In this document: piece by piece, positions 21,860 through 31,543 of the stretch
Numbering within the stretch: the first letter of the stretch is position 1
Layout of the letters: each line of letters opens with the position of its first letter
Virus record (IMG/VR): IMGVR_UViG_3300018023_000024
Location: 1 to 31,543 of that record
DNA: 31,543 nt
DNA from: a virus
Reading direction: 5' to 3' (one strand)
The notes under the pieces: generated by a model
Databases searched by the model: none
What the model saw: the letters and a program-made list of their open reading frames with translations, nothing else
Told to the model about the DNA's origin: nothing
Translations under genes and position numbers: made by a program

Positions 21860-21898
21860 TGAACTATGGGTTCCTTTATAGGGGGCTTATTATGTTCA
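21860..21898 (+). promoter_or_regulatory. Hairpin with TTTATA loop over the GIY-YIG start at 21892
   Basis: An inner stem pairs GGGTTCC (21868-21874) with GGGGGCTT (21881-21888) using G-U pairs and one bulge; the loop is TTTATA. An outer stem pairs TGAAC (21860-21864) with GTTCA (21894-21898), which includes part of the ATG. The G-run SD is buried in the stem. Confidence 0.5.
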
Positions 21899-22821: not shown

Positions 22822-25800
22822 ATGAGTTCACTCAATCCATTGCTTCAACCGACAGCCGGGGCATCCGGGGAAGCGCCCCCCATGACAGTTCGTTTGGAAA
22901 TCCATGATTCCCACCGAGGAGAGCTTTCCGGCAGGGTAGAAGCTTGGCTGGAGGGTGGCGGGGTATGGGCGACCGGTCCAGACGGCAAGGAGACCCAACA
23001 GGGAACACGTATTGGCTACGTGGACTTTTCGGAGTACGATAACGAAATTTGGATAAAGTACGTTCATGTTCAGCCGGAATACCGTCGCCGTGGTGTGGCG
23101 ACCGCCATGTACGAGAAGCTCAAGGCAGAGTTTCCCGGTGAGCAAATTGTTAGCAGCGGCACCACGGGAGAGGGTGGGGAACTTAGGAAGTCTTTGAAGG
23201 AGCGGGGAGTCATTGCCGCCGATGAGGCTTTGGACTACGGAGAGGTCATCAATGTGCTTCACAGCCTCATGCCGGATGTGGACCCCAGCCTCCCGGAGCC
23301 ACAAATCAGGATTGCCGACTATACCCGCTCCAAGTGGCTAGGCCGGACCGAGTGGCGGCACGGGGAACCCAATACCACTATCGTCCTTCAAAAAGCCATT
23401 TGTCATGATGAGGAGACCCTCCGCCGTATCATTGCCCACGAGCTTGTACACCACGAACAGATGCTTAAGGTGTGGTCAACCTACCCCGGAGGAAAGGTCT
23501 TCGATAGGATAGTGAGAATCGAAGGTGGGCATGGTGGGGTCTTTAAGGAGATAGCCAACCGTTGGAACGCCAAACACGGCAAAGACTTCATCACAAATAA
23601 ATCTGATGAGAGTTACGAGAAACAGTTTACCGAGCGTCCCTTCTTTGTTTTAGTCTCTCGTACTAGCTGGGGTTCTCCCCGTTGGCAGGCGTCTATCCGC
23701 ATTTCTGGCAAACAGAAAATATGGATGAGCGGCAAGAACATGGAAGAGTACCGGCTGACTCAGACCACCGACCAAGATTTCGTTGATGCCCCTAATATTG
23801 GTTCTAGGCATTGGGAGTACCCCCACAAGGATAACCATGGTTTGATTCTCGCTGCCGAGGCATTGATGAAAATGCCAGACCTCCGTTTGCAATGGGATGA
23901 AAAGCCCCCGGCAAGTGTTGCCGAGGAGCGTGCCAAGAGGCAGGAGATTTATGAGAAAATGAGGGAGTGGTCTCGGTCCCGGCGACAGAAGAAAACCGAG
24001 AAGTGGTTTCAAGACCTCAAAGACAGGTCGGATGCTTACCAGCAAAGTAAGGCATCCGCTGTGAATACTCAGCCCACTCCCGAGGTCTTGGATGAGGCTC
24101 GTGCTCTGCGCACGGAGTTGCGCATGGGGGATACCACCGCCGTGAGGGGTCAGGGTAACTGCGGATTCATTGCTGACTCCGCTTCTAAAAAGTATGGTTG
24201 GGATGTTTATGCCGGGCTGTACTTGGAAGACAACGGCAAGCAAATCGACCATGTTTGGAACGTCTCGGAAGACGGAACCATCATAGACATCACCCATGAC
24301 CAGTTTGGACCACCCGATATCAACGTGGTCAAGCCCGGTCAGCCGGGGTACGATGACTACCACGCTTACTGCTGGCAGTATCTCCCAGAGGATGAAGCGA
24401 ACGCCTGTCCCATCTGTGGTAATGGAGTAGTGAACGAGGAGTCCCAGCCTGATGAAGATATGGAAGAACTGAAAAAGACTTCCTCTCAGAAGGTGGGGTT
24501 GGATGCTATCAGGAAACAGGCAAGGGTGAGTCAAAATCTCACTTGGCTAGTCAACTATCTCACCATGAGCAGGCGGGATATGGGTGAGGGATATTCACTA
24601 TCGGATGAGTATGTCAGGCGGTATGATGAGCTTAATGACCGCTATGGGATAACATGGAAAGACAGCTTTCGATATATGGAAACGGTAAGACAGAAACAGC
24701 CGATAAGCGTCAACCAAATTGAGAAGATTGACATAGTAGACAAGTCTATAAAAACAGCAGACTCCCACAAGCAGACGCCCCATAGGGAGAATGACTTCGA
24801 GAGCTTGAGTGAAGGCGAGGGGCTAGAGGGATACGCTAACCAACCGGAATGCGAGGGTGGTAATAAGGCGATTATTCCTATGAACGTTCTGGAGGAGCAG
24901 GCCAAGCTTACGATGACCGCCTCTCCTGTTGCTCACTTCCCGTCGTGGGATGAGTTCGTTAAGAAAGAAGGCGGGATTGAGAAGATTGTCAATGGGTTTG
25001 GCTCCAGTTGGGACCAGTGGGAACCCTATGACCGGGCGGAGACGGAAGCTTTCGATGCTCTGGAGCAGAAGGAGCAACAGGAATATCTGGAGCGTCGGGC
25101 CTATGAAGATTTGGAGAACCGGTACTATGATGTTCTTGGCGACCACTCCATGTGGTCCTTCCCATTGGATGTCTACCGGGTAGTTACCCTCAAAGACATC
25201 AGGGGATTAAAGCGCCGGGGTATCGGGGTTTTCTGGTCACGGGATGAAAATGCCGCCGAAGCACACTGGGGAAACTTTGGACCGGGGTATCAGAAATACA
25301 TCATTCATGCACAAGTGCAGGAGCAGGATGTTGACTGGGAGGCAACCGTCTGGGTGAACCTTGACCCCTCCCTTGGAGAAGAGGAAAAGGAGATACGCTT
25401 AAAGGAGGGAACACACCCGCAGATACTCGGTTGGAAGGGAACCAGTGAAAATTCATGGCATCAACCCCCGGCAGCTTGGAAGAATGTAACCGCTTCTTCC
25501 TCGTGGGTTATCCCCAAGGAAGCCGCCACGGTGGGGTATGTCTATCATGTGACCTATGCCAACCGACTTGAGGATATCATCTGGCAGGGGTTGGAACCCG
25601 GTCATCCCCCGGTCATCGGTGAGAATTACGGTTGGCACACTGAGGGGCGTATTTTCTTCTCTGACCCACGGGGCGTGGGGTTCTGGGTCAGTAGAGTGGA
25701 GGAGTGGGCTTACCACAACTCAGATAGCCCCGTTTCTGATGGCATGATTCCCGTAGTCTTGCGCATCAAGGAGTACAAACGTTACGGGTTTGAGGAAGAT

Positions 25801-26079
25801 GAATATGGAACGGGTGATGCTGGTGCCGAAGCCTTCTTTACCCAAAAGACCATCCCCGCCAGTCGGATAGAGATGTGGGATGGAAAGGTCTGGCGCAAAC
25901 TCAATGAGGATTTGCTTGAGGAACTTGGCCTTGTACGCTTTGGCATGAATGAACCTGACCCATCTTGGGACCTTAACGGAACATTGAGGGAAAAGCAGGA
26001 AGAGAAGGCAGAGAAAGAGGGGTACTTGGATGAGCAATTTGGTCCTTTAATGAATCCTAGGTTTTCTAATGAAAGTTAA
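22822..26079 (+). CDS. Multidomain polyvalent effector: GNAT, HExxH peptidase, thiol-protease-like, two ART-like domains
   Basis: 1085 residues, probably delivered with or assembled into the virion. In order: NPLLQP near the start (5-10); a GNAT acetyltransferase (about 22-125, with WIKYVHVQPEYRRRGVATAMY); a SprT-like zinc peptidase (160-258, HELVH at 206-210, GGHGG at 235-239); a thiol-protease or transglutaminase-like domain (about 420-520: GNCGFIADSASKKYGW with the Cys, DHVWNV with the His, IIDITHDQFG with the Asp); a CPICG knuckle (~530); an ART-like segment (~780-880: VYRVVTLKDIRG..., GVFWSRDENAAEAHWG); and a second ART or KptA-like domain (~905-1045: VYHVTYANRLEDIIWQGLEP, RIFFSDP). Domain calls are by eye. 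The start has AAGGG as SD. It follows a GIY-YIG gene and precedes an HNH gene. Confidence 0.6.
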   Translation: MSSLNPLLQPTAGASGEAPPMTVRLEIHDSHRGELSGRVEAWLEGGGVWATGPDGKETQQGTRIGYVDFSEYDNEIWIKYVHVQPEYRRRGVATAMYEKLKAEFPGEQIVSSGTTGEGGELRKSLKERGVIAADEALDYGEVINVLHSLMPDVDPSLPEPQIRIADYTRSKWLGRTEWRHGEPNTTIVLQKAICHDEETLRRIIAHELVHHEQMLKVWSTYPGGKVFDRIVRIEGGHGGVFKEIANRWNAKHGKDFITNKSDESYEKQFTERPFFVLVSRTSWGSPRWQASIRISGKQKIWMSGKNMEEYRLTQTTDQDFVDAPNIGSRHWEYPHKDNHGLILAAEALMKMPDLRLQWDEKPPASVAEERAKRQEIYEKMREWSRSRRQKKTEKWFQDLKDRSDAYQQSKASAVNTQPTPEVLDEARALRTELRMGDTTAVRGQGNCGFIADSASKKYGWDVYAGLYLEDNGKQIDHVWNVSEDGTIIDITHDQFGPPDINVVKPGQPGYDDYHAYCWQYLPEDEANACPICGNGVVNEESQPDEDMEELKKTSSQKVGLDAIRKQARVSQNLTWLVNYLTMSRRDMGEGYSLSDEYVRRYDELNDRYGITWKDSFRYMETVRQKQPISVNQIEKIDIVDKSIKTADSHKQTPHRENDFESLSEGEGLEGYANQPECEGGNKAIIPMNVLEEQAKLTMTASPVAHFPSWDEFVKKEGGIEKIVNGFGSSWDQWEPYDRAETEAFDALEQKEQQEYLERRAYEDLENRYYDVLGDHSMWSFPLDVYRVVTLKDIRGLKRRGIGVFWSRDENAAEAHWGNFGPGYQKYIIHAQVQEQDVDWEATVWVNLDPSLGEEEKEIRLKEGTHPQILGWKGTSENSWHQPPAAWKNVTASSSWVIPKEAATVGYVYHVTYANRLEDIIWQGLEPGHPPVIGENYGWHTEGRIFFSDPRGVGFWVSRVEEWAYHNSDSPVSDGMIPVVLRIKEYKRYGFEEDEYGTGDAGAEAFFTQKTIPASRIEMWDGKVWRKLNEDLLEELGLVRFGMNEPDPSWDLNGTLREKQEEKAEKEGYLDEQFGPLMNPRFSNES

Positions 26080-26087
26080 CTTTTCAA

Positions 26088-26113
26088 CCCATCTATAGGA
26101 GGATATGGATGGG
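26088..26113 (+). promoter_or_regulatory. Hairpin displaying the SD in its loop, HNH gene at 26109
   Basis: CCCATCTATA (26088-26097) pairs with TATGGATGGG (26104-26113), ten pairs with one T-G; the loop is GGAGGA, the SD itself. ATG 26109 lies in the 3' arm, and TCTATA in the 5' arm is promoter-like. Confidence 0.65.
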
Positions 26114-26723
26114 CAGAAAATACGAAAAGGGTAACATTCCTTGGAATAAGGGGTCAGAGCTTTCTAGTGACCACCGAAGAAAAATTAGTGAATCCCATAA
26201 GGGAATCAAGGTAATTCGGGGACACTCAAAGGAGGAAGAGGAGGTAAGGAAGGCAGCCAAAAACCAAGGAGAAAAATTCTATTCTTTCCCTCGTCCTTGT
26301 TCGGAGGGACACACGTCAAAACGGTTTGTAAGAAATACAGAATGTTACCAATGTCACATTGAACAGTCTCATGCACGACGGGCTATCCGAGCAAGAACAC
26401 AACGAGAATACAAAATGTATCATTCAGCTAAAGGACGAGCAAGAGAGGGAGGACTAGAGTTTGGAATCACCATGGAAGATATTAAGAAAGCGTGGCCAAA
26501 AGACAATAAGTGCCCAATTTTAGGAATTGAATTAGAGTCCAATAAAACTGGAATGGGGCCTCAACGTCAATCCCCATCACTTGATAGGATTGACCCTAAA
26601 GGAGGATATGTGGTTGGCAACATCGCTGTTATATCCTACAAAGCTAATTGCATAAAACAAAATGAAACTAATCCCGAAATTTTTGAATCAATGGCTAGGT
26701 GGTTACGTTTTAATAAAAAGTAG
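26109..26723 (+). CDS. HNH homing endonuclease with NUMOD3-like N-terminus
   Basis: 204 residues. The start MGRKYEKGNIPWNKG...LSSDHRRKISESHKG is a NUMOD3-type DNA-binding unit. A zinc knuckle CSEGHTSKRF...CYQCH follows, then the nuclease core KCPILGIELESN, SLDRIDPKGGYVVGNIAVIS and YKANCIK, the LDRIDP-GY-N type in which Arg normally replaces the first His. Inserted between the 1085-residue gene and the gene at 26735 without breaking either. AT-rich. Confidence 0.88.
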   Translation: MGRKYEKGNIPWNKGSELSSDHRRKISESHKGIKVIRGHSKEEEEVRKAAKNQGEKFYSFPRPCSEGHTSKRFVRNTECYQCHIEQSHARRAIRARTQREYKMYHSAKGRAREGGLEFGITMEDIKKAWPKDNKCPILGIELESNKTGMGPQRQSPSLDRIDPKGGYVVGNIAVISYKANCIKQNETNPEIFESMARWLRFNKK

Positions 26724-26734
26724 AGGAGGAAAGT

Positions 26735-28303
26735 TTGTCATTTGATATACAAGCTGATAAAAATCAAATAGGCTCTGTGTATCTTCTTCACTTCTTAGGA
26801 GGTGGGATTTTTCATGGGTCTCAAGCAAGGGTTCGCCATTATTGCGGATTTGCTTTAGACCCCGAGGCCCGCATTGCTTTACATATGAATGGGACTTCAC
26901 GGGCCAGACTTATGGAGGTTGCCCATCAGCGACATGTAGAATTTACCGTGGCTCGTATTTGGAGTGGAGTGACTCGTGAGTTCGAGCGCAAACTCAAGAA
27001 CAGTGGTGGTCTGTCCCGCCACTGCCCAATTTGTAAGGCGGAGGGTACCGACCGGGATTCTGTGCGTAAGAAACAGCAGGCTCCTGCGGTGCAGGAAGTA
27101 CGGGTAGTGGAGGAGAACGAAGTAAAGCATATCGAGCTTATCCCAAGACCCAAGACCGCTGCGCTCACAAGAGACAACGCCCGTTGGAATGGCAAGCCGT
27201 TTTCCTTGGGAGCGGTGTCCTTGCTGGATGGGCACATTGAAGAAGCCCACAACTATCAGGAGTGCAAGGCGGGTGGATGGCACCACAGCCACATATTCAG
27301 CCAGCCGATTCTGGAGAGGGAACAGAGTGAATACGACTGGACCAAAACCGACCCTCGTGCCCCCGAAGGTCCGCAAGGTGGTGGACCCGCCATCGGCTGG
27401 GGCGATACCCCATGGGGAGACTCCCATGGAAAGACCAGTGGAGATATCACCATATTCTGGGTAGAAGATGATGGGTCAATCGGTTGCAACTACCCACTTC
27501 CCGAAAATATCAAAGCGGCCATTAAGAAGCAGATTCAGGTCATCAGGTGGAGAAGGGCCGCTGAGGAGGATACACTTGCCAAGCTCGTATGGCAGTTCCG
27601 AGAGGAACAAGAGGATTGGTATGAGTGGTTAGAGGACAAATCCTGTTTCCGTGAACAGTGCCTCTGTTTGGCGGACCTGTTAGCGAAGTTTCTGCGGGAA
27701 CATGGTTTCCCTGATGCCCATCGGGCGGGTGGGTATTATGGAGAAGGACCGGAGAAGGGTGAGTATTTACAAGTAGGAAGGCATGGACTACATTGGTGGG
27801 TAGAGACGCAGGATAAAATCATCGACATCACCTGCGACCAATTCCACCCCGGAGAAGAAGATGATTGGCGAGTGGTAATCACCGACCTTAACGACCCGGA
27901 GTATCAACGAAAGGGCACCGGCTCGGCGTTGGTCCCCAAGACCGCTGAGGAGATTCCCGAGATTCTCTATCACGTGACTTTTAAGAGCCGGGTTCCTAAG
28001 ATACTTCAAGAGGGACTGGTTCCCCAAAAGGAGCCGAACTTCCCCTTTGAGGAGAACCGGGGTTTAGTATTTCTGACGGCGATTGAGGGAGTGGATTATT
28101 GGAAAAACCTTCTCGCCGAGTTTATACGGGGCAAGGATGATGAGTTGGTTACTCTTCGCATCAAGACTGAGGGGATGCGTTTGGCAAAGGACCCCTTGGG
28201 AATGGGAGAAACTGGTGTTCTTTCATATTCAACCCACCTTGTTCCCCCCAAGAATATCACAGTGCTACCAGAGCCAAGAAAGATTGCCTCCGTAGAACAA
28301 TAG
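26735..28303 (+). CDS. Polyvalent protein: GIY-YIG-like, thiol-protease-like and ART-like domains
   Basis: 522 residues from TTG 26735 behind GAGGAGG. Residues ~13-97 resemble a GIY-YIG/URI-type domain used in phage polyvalent proteins: GSVYLLHFLGGG, HYCGFALDPEARIALHMNG, RLMEVAHQRHVEFTVARIW, EFERKLKNSGGLSRHCPIC. A linker PRPKTAALTRDNARW precedes an unrecognised region. At ~300-375 there is a Cys/His/Asp set like the 22822 protein (CLCLADLLAKFL, HGLHWWVE, IIDITCDQFHPG). At ~408-510 is an ART-like end (ILYHVTFKSRVPKILQEGL, RGLVFLTA). The last two domains are paralogous to those of 22822 and end in RKIASVEQ. Catalysis is inferred from motifs only. Confidence 0.55.
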   Translation: MSFDIQADKNQIGSVYLLHFLGGGIFHGSQARVRHYCGFALDPEARIALHMNGTSRARLMEVAHQRHVEFTVARIWSGVTREFERKLKNSGGLSRHCPICKAEGTDRDSVRKKQQAPAVQEVRVVEENEVKHIELIPRPKTAALTRDNARWNGKPFSLGAVSLLDGHIEEAHNYQECKAGGWHHSHIFSQPILEREQSEYDWTKTDPRAPEGPQGGGPAIGWGDTPWGDSHGKTSGDITIFWVEDDGSIGCNYPLPENIKAAIKKQIQVIRWRRAAEEDTLAKLVWQFREEQEDWYEWLEDKSCFREQCLCLADLLAKFLREHGFPDAHRAGGYYGEGPEKGEYLQVGRHGLHWWVETQDKIIDITCDQFHPGEEDDWRVVITDLNDPEYQRKGTGSALVPKTAEEIPEILYHVTFKSRVPKILQEGLVPQKEPNFPFEENRGLVFLTAIEGVDYWKNLLAEFIRGKDDELVTLRIKTEGMRLAKDPLGMGETGVLSYSTHLVPPKNITVLPEPRKIASVEQ

Positions 28304-28315
28304 GAAGACAAGAAT

Positions 28316-29356
28316 GTGGTAGCCCATATAGGAAGCTACCGTATCGTTGTAGATGACCCCGGAGACGCTAAATATATTACGGCATGGACGGAGGACAACA
28401 AATGTGTTGGCAAACTATCTACCAAACGACAGAGCGACAGTGGACCCCTGAACGACTATCTCGGGATTGCACTGGTGGAAGTGAAACCACGGCATCGGGG
28501 ATACGGACTGGGCAAGGCGATGTACTTTGCCCTGATGCAGTTCATGAATCCGAAATGGAAGGGAATCAAGAGCTACCTCCCGGAGAGATACAATAAGAAG
28601 CGGGTTCCCAACATCTGGCGTAGACTGCAAGGCTACAAACTTCCCGGAGAAGAAGACTGGATGGTTGCCGACCGGGATAAGGTTGCCAAGATAGCGTCAG
28701 GTCAGGACTCCCCGGACTGGGAAGAGGATGAGGATTCTCTCCTCACCAAGAAAGCTTGGCAGGATGAGCGCTTCTCCTATTGGGGATTGCAGTTCGCCGT
28801 TGACAAAGCGGAGGGGATCATTGCCGCCAATCCCCGGCCTACGCAGAAGGCTCCCAAGGCATTTCTCAAAGCCTTTGTTGGCACCGTGGAAGATGACAAG
28901 GCTGAGGAAGAGGGTAGAATCAACCTCATGAATGTGGGCCTGAATAAGGAACACATGCAGACCGTTGATGCTGAGAAGCCCGGTATTGTTGCTCCCCTCA
29001 TTTTCAAGCCGGACAAGACTCACTCCGAACCGCAGAAACACTACATCCTCATTGACGGAAACCACCGGGCTAAGAAGCGCCTCCAAATGGGTCTGGACTT
29101 CATGGAAGTCTACCCCCTCACCCCCGAGGAAGCGTGGCAGTGCATGGCTCCGTACACCTTCCCCAACCTGTTGAAAATCTATGTTAACCCGACCAAAAAG
29201 GTGAGGAAGAAGGCGGAAGAGCAGCCCGCCAGACTCCTCTATGTTGACGACATGCGCCGACCCACCGCTCCTGATGTTGATTGGGTCAGGAATTATGAAG
29301 AGTTCTTCCAGTACATGACGACGCATCCCATGCCCGAGGCTATTAGTTTTGGATAA
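28316..29356 (+). CDS. GNAT/ParB-like protein with truncated receiver-like domain (5' half of a split gene)
   Basis: 346 residues starting at GTG 28316 (SD AGGAAGA). Residues 1-125 look like a GNAT acetyltransferase (VEVKPRHRGYGLGKAMY). Residues ~190-275 look ParB-like, with ILIDGNHRAKKRLQMG near 245. From ~305 LLYVDDMRRP...WVRNYEEFFQYM...EAISFG starts a cyclic-phosphate-type receiver (cREC) domain, which normally continues with an ISFDHDLG-like motif. Here it stops after ISFG at 29356, and the missing part reappears in frame-like order in the gene at 30183, beyond an HNH gene. So this is the first piece of a gene cut by a mobile endonuclease. Confidence 0.6.
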   Translation: MVAHIGSYRIVVDDPGDAKYITAWTEDNKCVGKLSTKRQSDSGPLNDYLGIALVEVKPRHRGYGLGKAMYFALMQFMNPKWKGIKSYLPERYNKKRVPNIWRRLQGYKLPGEEDWMVADRDKVAKIASGQDSPDWEEDEDSLLTKKAWQDERFSYWGLQFAVDKAEGIIAANPRPTQKAPKAFLKAFVGTVEDDKAEEEGRINLMNVGLNKEHMQTVDAEKPGIVAPLIFKPDKTHSEPQKHYILIDGNHRAKKRLQMGLDFMEVYPLTPEEAWQCMAPYTFPNLLKIYVNPTKKVRKKAEEQPARLLYVDDMRRPTAPDVDWVRNYEEFFQYMTTHPMPEAISFG

Positions 29357-29376
29357 TGGGGGTGATATCTTTTGAC

Positions 29377-29404
29377 TTCGTATCTATTATATAGAGGATG
29401 CGAA
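29377..29404 (+). promoter_or_regulatory. Hairpin with TATTATATA loop over the HNH start at 29404
   Basis: TTCGTATC (29377-29384) pairs with GATGCGAA (29397-29404), eight pairs with one T-G; the loop TATTATATAGAG contains a promoter-like TATA and most of the GAGG SD. The A of ATG 29404 ends the stem. Confidence 0.55.
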
Positions 29405-30186
29405 TGACTATTAGAGGCAATTGCACCGTTTGTGGGGGGAACTTCAAGCGTCGTTATGCTAAGAACTCCGTTCCTATTGTGAAGCTCTGTTCTAATAAGT
29501 GCAGAAGGGAGTGGCTACAAAAGGACAAGGTCAAAAAGGAGTGCATCGTTTGTAATAAGGTATTTTCCGTAAGCGCCTCAGTAGCTTATAGATATGTCAC
29601 CTGTAGTATTGAATGCAAGCGTAAACATAAGGAGGGGGATAAAAATGGAAACTGGCGAGGCGGTATAGCGGGAAATAGAAAGAAAGAGATTCGTTCCGGT
29701 AAGCTTCGTCGTTGGCGGAAAGCGGTCTTTGAAAGAGATGGACCCCACTGTGTCTTATGCGGGTCTAGTGATGGGTTAGAGGCTGACCGCATAAAGCCAT
29801 GGTCTCTCTATCCAGAGTTTAGATATGAAGTAAGTAATGGACGGATATTGTGCAAGATTTGTCATAACAAGCACACCAGAGAGTTAGCCGCCGAACGAAA
29901 GAGACTTGAGGCATTGGGGTATGTACGGATAACTTGTCCACGAGAGTACGAGATTTTGGTTTGTCCCAGATGTGGGGTATCTTTCCTTAACAAGAGTGGT
30001 CAGAGTATCTATTGCGGAAAAAGGTGTCAAAGAGCGGAAGGACAGAAACGGTTAAGGGTAGCTAAAGCTGCCCGTGGGGAATGTAAGTGTTGTAGCAATC
30101 CAGTTGCCCCTAATTACAGTCGTTGTATTAGATGTCTCGAAAAGCAAAGAGTGGAGATGGCTGAATACAGAAAGCCTGATGTATGA
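29404..30186 (+). CDS. HNH homing endonuclease that splits the receiver-like gene
   Basis: 260 residues from ATG 29404 (SD GAGG; ATG 29398 has no room for one). N-terminal knuckles CTVCGGNFKRR...CSNKCR and CIVCNKVF...CSIECK, then a nuclease core FERDGPHCVLCGSSDGLEAD, RIKPWSLYPEFRYEVSNG and ILCKICHNKHTREL. The family normally has DHIKPW; here it reads DRIKPW, so the catalytic His appears replaced by Arg (CGC for CAC). More zinc knuckles follow (CPRCGVSF...CGKRCQ, CKCCSNP...CIRCL). Its stop overlaps the start of the downstream gene piece as ATGA, so that piece is translationally coupled to the endonuclease. Confidence 0.85.
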   Translation: MTIRGNCTVCGGNFKRRYAKNSVPIVKLCSNKCRREWLQKDKVKKECIVCNKVFSVSASVAYRYVTCSIECKRKHKEGDKNGNWRGGIAGNRKKEIRSGKLRRWRKAVFERDGPHCVLCGSSDGLEADRIKPWSLYPEFRYEVSNGRILCKICHNKHTRELAAERKRLEALGYVRITCPREYEILVCPRCGVSFLNKSGQSIYCGKRCQRAEGQKRLRVAKAARGECKCCSNPVAPNYSRCIRCLEKQRVEMAEYRKPDV

Positions 30187-30896
30187 GAGATTTAACACAA
30201 CCAGAGGCAGGCGGTCTTGGACTAACCGCTGCTCGTTATGTTATTGATAACAATCTTTCCATAAAGCGGTGGTTTGTTCATTCACCCAATATAATGGAGA
30301 AAAAAGAGTTAGAAAGCCTCTTATTTAACTACTCTCCTGATGGCTACGACTCATCTTTGTACAAGACTCCCCACGTTAATGAAGAAGAGCAAGTCTACGG
30401 TGGGAAGATAAAGGGAGGCTTCCGGGTGAAGGCTGCCCGGCGCAGAGTAAATCCCCTTCTGCAACCGTCCGGTCCGTGGCCTGAACGCTCCGCCGATTGG
30501 TCTAGGCTTTCTCAAAATGGAGGTTGGATATCTCGGGACGGGCGACCTCTCCCCATGACTCACCCCTACGAACTCCACGGAGAGTGGGCGATGGCGGAAG
30601 ACCTGTGCGGCATGGATGATTCAGAGGTGGAGGAGCAGGGGGGAGAGGATTACCTCGGATATGCCGAGAACCTTGCCATGGAGAATGGGCACCTCCGGGT
30701 TGACCGGGATGCTGGTCAGTTTTCCATACAGGCACGAAATGTCACAAAGAGCCGCCGACTCATCACCGAGGCTCTGTTGATGATGCCATTCAAGGGAGAA
30801 GTGACCTTGGAGATGGGTCCACACGACCGCCCAAACTGGTCTAAAAGCCTCATTTCCACGCAGGATGCCGCAGATTGGCTAGAAAATATTCAATGA
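30183..30896 (+). CDS. 3' half of the split receiver-like gene plus NPLLQP-linked domain
   Basis: 237 residues. The first ~70 continue the receiver-like domain broken at 29356: DLTQPEAGGLGLTAARYVID, then SIKRWFVHSPNIMEKKELES, equivalent to the DL...G...A..V.....P..W.VHSaNp...nIe.LL end of cyclic-phosphate receiver domains. Residues 85-97 (RRRVNPLLQPSGP) introduce a second region ending in a compact domain (GHLRVDRDAGQF, SRRLITEALLMMPF, DAADWLENIQ) of unknown function. There is no strong SD; the start is the A of the ATGA overlap with the HNH stop. The original gene probably encoded both halves in one chain. Confidence 0.6.
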   Translation: MRDLTQPEAGGLGLTAARYVIDNNLSIKRWFVHSPNIMEKKELESLLFNYSPDGYDSSLYKTPHVNEEEQVYGGKIKGGFRVKAARRRVNPLLQPSGPWPERSADWSRLSQNGGWISRDGRPLPMTHPYELHGEWAMAEDLCGMDDSEVEEQGGEDYLGYAENLAMENGHLRVDRDAGQFSIQARNVTKSRRLITEALLMMPFKGEVTLEMGPHDRPNWSKSLISTQDAADWLENIQ

Positions 30897-30904
30897 CAGA
30901 ATAA

Positions 30905-30941
30905 ATGAACTTTCTGAAGCACTTATAGGGGGAAAGTTCAT
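30905..30941 (+). promoter_or_regulatory. 10-bp hairpin over the GIY-YIG start at 30940
   Basis: ATGAACTTTC (30905-30914) pairs perfectly with GAAAGTTCAT (30932-30941). The 17-base loop contains CTTATAGGGG: a TATA-like element and the SD. The AT of the start codon is in the stem. This is the strongest of the hairpins. Confidence 0.7.
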
Positions 30942-31543
30942 GTTTATCTATTTGATTGTAAATCATGAAACAGGAAAGTATTATGTCGGTCAACATACAG
31001 GTAATAATCTAAAGAAGTACCTTCAACAAAAATTTTCAGATGCCAGACACGGACGAGGGGGAAATTCTCGTCTTTATAATTCCATGCGTAAACACCCCTT
31101 TCCTCATCTTTGGTCCATCCACGCCCTCCGTTCCGATATCCAAGCTAAAGCCGAGCTTGATGAGACCGAGCGGGACTTCATCAAGTTCCTTCGTGCTCAA
31201 GACCCTGAGTATGGCTACAATCTTTGTCGTGGAGGGGAGGGGTTTACCGGACTGCATTCTTCTCAAACTTGTGCTAAAATGAGTGAAGGGGTTAAACGAG
31301 CTTGGGCTAACCCCGAAAAAAGAGCCAAGCAATCGGCAAATCTCAAAGCTGACTGGGCTAAACCTGAGTCTTTTTCTAATCGGGTTCAAGCGATTAGGGA
31401 TTCATGGGCGGACCCTTATTCTCGTTCTAATCGTATGAAGGCTTTTGAAAATCTTGATTTTCACAGTAAAATGAGCACGGTTAATAAGAAAACATGGTCT
31501 GACCCAGAGAGAAGGAAAAAACAAGCAGCACTTCAAAGAGAGC
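30940..31543 (+). CDS. GIY-YIG homing endonuclease (3' end beyond window)
   Basis: 201 residues visible, open at the window edge. The GIY-YIG domain: FIYLIVNHETGKYYVGQHTG, IHALRSD, ERDFIKFLRAQDPEYGYNL, GGEGF. The N-terminal 100 residues are nearly identical in layout and wording to the gene at 4396, but the C-terminal part uses W-(A/S)-(N/D)-P repeats (RAWANPEKRAKQS, ADWAKPESFSNR, DSWADPYSRSNR, KTWSDPERRKKQ) like the gene at 21892. It looks like one endonuclease family spreading within the genome, with DNA-binding parts diverging. Confidence 0.93.
   Translation, partial: MFIYLIVNHETGKYYVGQHTGNNLKKYLQQKFSDARHGRGGNSRLYNSMRKHPFPHLWSIHALRSDIQAKAELDETERDFIKFLRAQDPEYGYNLCRGGEGFTGLHSSQTCAKMSEGVKRAWANPEKRAKQSANLKADWAKPESFSNRVQAIRDSWADPYSRSNRMKAFENLDFHSKMSTVNKKTWSDPERRKKQAALQRE

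Follow-up and report, generated by a model that had tools for sequence, protein, structure and literature searches.

The stretch of DNA analysed here is the IMG/VR virus record IMGVR_UViG_3300018023_000024 (positions 1 to 31,543, 31,543 nucleotides, hereafter the window), in which a cyclic-phosphate-processing receiver (cREC) domain encoded in a giant open reading frame (ORF) lies in two pieces on either side of HNH2, a gene for an HNH endonuclease (Table 1). The 5' piece encodes a GNAT domain, a middle region and the cREC domain through its third strand (ISF), followed by one extra codon and TAA, and the 3' piece holds the remaining cREC tail, including its VHS motif, and the native downstream region. 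Only 41 bases separate the 5' piece from HNH2 and none separate HNH2 from the 3' piece, whose start codon overlaps the HNH2 stop. A previous sequence-only reading of the window had described the same three ORFs, from the EAISFG end of the first to the MRDL start and ATGA overlap of the last; it had put about 45 bases before HNH2, slightly too many, and none before the 3' half, which was accurate. The break is not an assembly artefact, as two other assemblies carry it identically (L003 with 0 mismatches and L004 with 1, at position 24892, over 8228 bases compared).

Pfam searches assigned the 5' piece a GNAT domain (PF00583, E 2.3e-5, above the cut-off), and its end matched positions 2-37 of 88 of cREC_REC (PF20274, E 7e-4) at 20.7 bits, below the 27-bit cut-off. 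The 3' piece had no cREC match in Pfam; against a hidden Markov model built from 65 unique uninterrupted cREC sequences it scored E 2.4e-5 over positions 88-121 (E 5.6e-5 when the two nearest relatives were removed from the model), a weak match beside the E 1.8e-4 of a decoy ORF from the window. Two IMG/VR jumbo-phage contigs of 317 and 238 kb (L005 and L006, corresponding to G003 and G004) carry an uninterrupted ORF of 1445 aa at this locus. By blastp, the single frame of the G003 ORF covers the window ORF starting at 26735 (residues 103-522) at 92.6% identity, the 5' piece (residues 1-127 and 144-345, aligned with ORF residues 704-830 and 987-1188) at 93% and the 3' piece (residues 13-236) at 83.5%, and its cREC domain matches PF20274 at E 3.1e-20 over positions 2-86 of 88. 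HNH2 is absent from this locus in both contigs, in which its sole match is a 45% fragment elsewhere. When 50,697 phage records were searched by tblastn (E limit 0.01), each piece matched the record of Tunturiibacter phage Tunturi_5 only, both falling in order and 87 nt apart within one 128-aa ORF, gp291, with modest E values of 1e-2 and 6e-3. This ORF (L001:2986-3372) is annotated as a nudix hydrolase, and its sequence reads as a complete cREC domain. The HNH gene gp292, located 1 kb from the Tunturi_5 cREC, was considered as kin of HNH2 and is not similar to it. With an intact homologue in a relative and an endonuclease gene between two ORFs, the locus has the form of a gene split by a homing endonuclease gene (HEG). 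An uninterrupted homologue spanning both pieces, which the sequence-only reading had proposed to look for, thus exists in the G003/G004 ORF and in Tunturi_5 gp291, and Pfam and these homologues agree with its claim that an HNH gene interrupts a receiver-type domain at the DHD motif; the two outcomes it had named as evidence against itself, homologues encoded as two separate genes without an endonuclease and the lack of a receiver match for either half, did not occur.

At the left junction the ISF codons read ATTAGTTTTG in the window versus ATCTCCTTTG in L005. Relative to L005, ungapped identity in 25-bp steps lies at 84-96% on the left side as far as 29343 and at 80-96% on the right side from 30342, whereas the six steps just left of 30342 reach only 24-80%; between these anchors lie 998 bp in the window and 229 bp in the relative. 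The diverged tract downstream of HNH2 is AT-rich, with a third-codon-position GC content of 0.32 over 30183-30341, and a GC content at or below its value of 0.396 was found in none of the overlapping 154-bp segments of native giant-ORF coding sequence (0/5425 in the window and 0/22,799 in G003). From the diverged flank identity and a tract GC content below that of all native segments, we therefore consider that the cREC tail was probably imported together with the endonuclease gene. Up to position 30340, over its first ~52 codons, the 3' piece has a foreign look, and the pieces do not look simply like two halves of one gene. In the donor, the loop between DHDL and TG may have been short, which fits the MRDL...GLGL sequence (~6 nt lost), or long, as in the nearest relatives (~30 codons lost).

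An AlphaFold model of the intact G003-type domain, based on a 35-row alignment, adopts a receiver fold (mean predicted local distance difference test score, pLDDT, of 84.7). The best VIA score was Z 10.7 (89 residues, 1.9 Å), against response-regulator receivers, and the best Foldseek match was also a receiver (E 9.9e-4). This result concerns the intact G003 domain, which combines a cREC_REC sequence match over the domain with the receiver fold, and not the split form in the window, for whose 3' piece the predicted structure (mean pLDDT 41.6) is too poor to use. Strand 3 of the G003-type model spans residues 40-43 (AISF) and is directly followed by D44, at what we take to be the site of the phospho-acceptor aspartate of receivers. 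The DHD motif is invariant in the 35 alignment rows, in part by construction, ISFDHDL having been one of two retrieval patterns. The 3' tract alone, as a query against phage records, retrieved 14 of them at E up to 10, with Tunturi_5 the sole one below 0.5. Each of the four examined (Tunturi_5, Cellulophaga phi17:2_18, Aeromonas phiA047 and LR756502) carries a cREC with DHD; the other ten, from Cellulophaga (six), Gordonia (two) and Erwinia (two), stayed outside this comparison. The window pieces retain the DD after strand 1, and the Asp and His codons of DHD are in neither piece, which leaves them without the full set of conserved catalytic aspartates of cREC_REC. The pattern GAYCAYGAY occurs on neither strand from 29300 to 30360, D-x-D-L/I is found in no plus-strand frame from 29342 to 30360, and D-x-DL arises in 0/168 in-frame open joins of ends at 29341-29398 with starts at 30100-30214. 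Lacking the Asp and His codons of DHDL, the domain has most likely lost its activity; cREC domains are predicted to act on cyclic ADP-ribose (cADPr) or 2',3'-cyclic nucleotides (PMC7824862).

A self-splicing intron or an intein would remove the insert from the RNA or the protein, and HEGs do commonly reside in introns, the tape-measure pieces of phage ICP1 being spliced (PMC10448857). Yet positions 29200-30450 gave no Rfam match at E up to 10, none of the joins restores the motif, the 41 nt before HNH2 and the lack of any after it speak against an intron, and the TAA that closes the 5' frame speaks against an intein. Barring a ribozyme unlike any Rfam family, the locus thus has neither a group I ribozyme match nor exons that join to an intact motif. 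Because Rfam, joins and motif scans were all negative, an intron or a fully rebuilt active site is unlikely, and we give splicing hardly any credence, in keeping with the sequence-only reading, which had seen no room for a group I intron. That reading had also drawn a parallel to the split nrdA of an Aeromonas phage, which the locus resembles in the fission of a gene by an HEG; a reassembling enzyme is less well supported. If the two pieces associated and the cREC domain worked as NrdA of phage Aeh1 does (PMC2988022), one would expect what is seen of the frames, namely two open pieces, an ATGA restart and strong purifying selection on the native parts, but the Asp-His pair of DHD is in neither piece, which would leave associated pieces without the catalytic Asp, D44 sits at the end of strand 3 and the 3' piece contributes a cREC portion that seems foreign to the 5' part, so that we regard a functional split enzyme as very improbable.

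HNH2 belongs to the HNH family (PF01844, E 7.2e-5, 23.3 bits against a cut-off of 21.4; phrog_1271, E 1.9e-22), with N-terminal CxxC pairs, recognized by eye, ahead of the HNH core. Arg131 of HNH2 occupies what is presumably the position of the general-base histidine of the HNH motif. An HNH alignment scan with a pattern allowing H or R at this position found 522 relatives, and the 80 best of these were retained, including two from the same phage; among the other 78, near-duplicates retained, five could not be read and histidine was present in 73/73 readable sequences (65 DH and 6 HH by script, and two mis-parsed rows read by eye as ADHI and AHHI). One transition, CAC to CGC, would turn the His codon into Arg. 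Because arginine stands at the catalytic His position, HNH2 is probably inactive and no longer mobile.

We favour, with a probability of about 0.75, an insertional fission in which a homing-type HNH gene interrupted a polyvalent-type giant gene within cREC, where the active site is encoded. The HNH gene would have inserted at the most conserved codons of cREC, and homing sites frequently span codons of critical function (PMC2988022). The insert would have brought a short left arm with the ISF codons and a cREC 3' end of ~155 bp, diverged and AT-rich, that probably came from another phage; double-strand-break repair from an endonuclease-bearing donor would leave such flanks, and co-conversion around the repaired break is described for T4 endonucleases (PMC2988022). 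Without the Asp-His codons of DHDL the cREC domain is probably dead, and HNH2, with its arginine, has probably lost its mobility. Translation would proceed separately: the 5' piece would be read to its TAA, HNH2 would start from its own ribosome-binding site, and coupling at ATGA would yield the 3' piece, so that the region downstream of cREC would still be produced. Besides the evidence above, the adjacent giant ORF speaks for fission, being also split by an HNH gene that is followed by an over-diverged tract: a 2053-aa ORF of G003 is interrupted in the window by HNH1 and resumes at residue 1915 in the ORF after it, and the tract downstream of HNH1 (26777-27106) has a synonymous divergence (dS) of 1.85, compared to 0.42-0.97 in six native blocks, at a ratio of nonsynonymous to synonymous divergence (dN/dS) of 0.07.

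Several observations weigh against this explanation. HNH2 and the tract, each searched in IMG/VR, were found only in two other contigs of the same phage, a search with the tract alignment added only two G003-type contigs and no donor, a search of viral contigs with the HNH alignment yielded no donor, and a regular expression for the cREC motif matched the retrieved flanks of 0/78 HNH2 relatives. Because no donor was found, we infer homing and co-conversion from the pattern and have not witnessed them. Moreover, the third residue of DHD may survive as the Asp of MRDL, in which case part of the site would be left, and the open pieces, together with a dN/dS of 0.026-0.063 in the six native blocks, also fit continued function. 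Such low ratios point to giant-ORF proteins that are of importance to the phage, although the divergence may for the most part predate the breaks. The missing donor would equally suit an ordinary recombination with a diverged relative that carried the cREC tail and a nearby HNH gene, the endonuclease not being the driver, as would the diverged tract, which is long on one side only, and a further recombination here (5.4 kb missing at a 7-bp overlap). We nevertheless consider such a mosaic exchange unlikely, given that an over-diverged tract is bordered by an HNH gene in each of two adjacent giant ORFs, the two genes being separate, and that nuclease genes at exchange boundaries have been described (PMC10448857).

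The predicted pairing with the anti-Shine-Dalgarno sequence differs among the possible restart sites, amounting to -12.0 kcal/mol at 26735 (AGGAGG and TTG), -4.2 kcal/mol at 28316 (AGGAAG and GTG) and -0.1 kcal/mol at 30183 (ATGA). Coupling at ATGA is likely for the 3' piece because the pairing there is only -0.1 kcal/mol. Ribosome bypass from the GGA-TAA that ends the 5' piece was rejected, as landing must skip >800 nt and landing at the GGA of the HNH2 leader meets a stop two codons on; the bypass of T4 gene 60 takes off at GGA-UAG. In the five G003 ORFs of >1200 aa (L025-L027), the linker-like motif [KR]-x-A-[AS], chosen after the sequences of these ORFs had been viewed, occurs 30 times in 9374 residues versus 10.7 expected (maximum of 21 in 1000 shuffles), and KTA occurs 16 times versus 2.4 expected. 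Such linkers could be polyprotein processing sites. It is conceivable, if rather unlikely, that the giant proteins are cut at K-x-A-A/S linkers anyway, which would make fission nearly free, and that the dead HNH2 frame is kept as a translational relay, being the sole ribosome supply, through ATGA and with no Shine-Dalgarno sequence, for the downstream piece; a former selfish gene would then serve downstream translation.

As in the mobE insertion in nrdA of Aeh1, an HEG lies here between two ORFs of a phage gene (PMC2988022), but the NrdA pieces form an active enzyme, whereas here the active-site codons are lost, a diverged tail replaces the native one and HNH2 lacks the catalytic His. Fission by an HEG into separate ORFs is likewise described for mobA and gene 60 of T4 and for seg43 and genes 43A/43B of Aeromonas phage 25 (PMC2988022); those targets are a topoisomerase and a DNA polymerase, whereas the target here is a multidomain, host-conflict-type protein that can lose one domain without necessary damage to the others. 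A giant ORF with GNAT and cREC domains and a predicted role in host conflict resembles the polyvalent proteins (PMC5512222) and the cREC proteins of jumbo phages (PMC7824862), and the term "homing endonuclease" is absent from the available portions of these two texts. The window would thus add a host-conflict-type gene to the targets split by HEGs, as an event of the split-gene kind and not as a split functional enzyme, and in this one locus the host domain and its invading endonuclease alike look dead. Should the pieces still be produced, modular phage proteins would tolerate fission, and selfish endonucleases could reshape anti-defence proteins.

A scan of relatives for cREC, in which 80 loci were kept of at least 453 relatives, uncovered a second entry into the domain: one phage group, represented by the three contigs L099, L100 (identical to L099 across 8258 bases) and L108 (~98% identical), has an in-frame NUMOD4-HNH_3-NUMOD1 endonuclease inside cREC. 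As in the window, a homing-type HNH gene has entered the same domain family, but these loci differ in HEG architecture, in their site before the VHS strand, in their single open frame and in having kept DHD. Because this endonuclease differs in type and site, we conclude from the sequences that cREC has been entered by an endonuclease gene at least twice.

Table 1. Features of the split cREC locus, of its surroundings in the window and of a second cREC locus entered by an endonuclease gene.
Feature	Position	Strand	Description
5' piece	28316..29356	+	346 aa, GTG start, ends EAISFG then TAA
Left junction of insert	29342..29397	+	altered ISF codons, 5'-piece stop, HNH2 leader; GC 0.32
HNH2 gene (HNH endonuclease)	29398..30186	+	262 aa, TGA stop, between 5' and 3' pieces
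Arg131 (CGC) of HNH2	29788..29790	+	ADRI within LEADRIKPW; HNH-motif His position
ATGA	30183..30186	+	3'-piece start overlapping HNH2 stop
3' piece	30183..30896	+	237 aa, starts MRDL; cREC tail (VHS), native downstream region from 30342
Diverged AT-rich cREC C-terminal tract	30187..30340	+	GC 0.396; candidate co-conversion tract
First piece of neighbouring giant ORF	22822..26079	+	1085 aa; matches residues 6-594 and 1432-1910 of 2053-aa G003 ORF
HNH1 (endonuclease VII/HNH type)	26109..26723	+	inside what is the 2053-aa ORF in G003
522-aa ORF	26735..28303	+	TTG start, Shine-Dalgarno AGGAGG; tail of 2053-aa ORF fused to part of 1445-aa ORF
TAG for Trp	28301..28303	+	SVEQ(stop)EDKN vs SVEQWEDKN in L005/G003; parts 26735 ORF from 28316 ORF
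GIY-YIG homing-type endonuclease	30940..31543	+	PF01541, 21.4 bits, just below cut-off; between two giant ORFs; exceeds window end
cREC with in-frame NUMOD4-HNH_3-NUMOD1	L108:3947-5083; L099/L100:3983-5086		378- and 367-aa frames

By its sequence, the host gene belongs to the giant multidomain ORFs of the polyvalent type, with at least two conflict-type domains in one polypeptide: GNAT scores above the cut-off in the ORFs at 22822 and 28316, and the full cREC domain is present in the G003 ORF, while SprT-like and KptA-like matches stayed below the cut-off. The account of the split cREC in the sequence-only reading stands in part; it was silent on two neighbouring events, the second HNH fission and the nonsense break, so that there are two fissions and one nonsense break in a single stretch of giant modular ORFs. 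The nonsense break, a TAG in place of a Trp codon, is followed by AGGAAG and the GTG at 28316. Recoding of this TAG was considered and is not supported, as TAG ends 11/33 hand-listed window genes (28301 included); no tRNA gene was found within the window, to which that search was confined. At 27101-27107, 5.4 kb of G003 are missing, with a 7-bp overlap at the junction, which joins the tail of the one giant ORF with the middle of the other.

At least 10 homing-type genes of the HNH, endonuclease VII or GIY-YIG kind lie in the 31.5 kb (605, 4396, 11744, 14422, 15822, 16841, 21892, 26109, 29398 and 30940), a count that rests on 17 protein queries and not on every ORF, and 8/10 (not 605 and 15822) sit where G003 has <270 nt. 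A translational hairpin ahead of HNH2 was rejected, its start codon being paired in the predicted fold, yet at an energy near that of shuffled sequences (z -0.41). Strong hairpins were predicted at the starts of the endonuclease genes at 21892 (z -4.1) and 26109 (z -3.9), reminiscent of the hairpins that hide the ribosome-binding sites of T4 endonuclease genes (PMC2988022), and the mean z of start hairpins was -1.37 for 10 HEGs versus -0.58 for 22 other starts, a difference for which significance was not computed. Finally, in Haloarcula tailed virus 2 (L115, gp92-gp95), an HNH2-like gene (27/61 residues) lies between two genes annotated as SprT family, an arrangement that is possibly another HEG-split gene.

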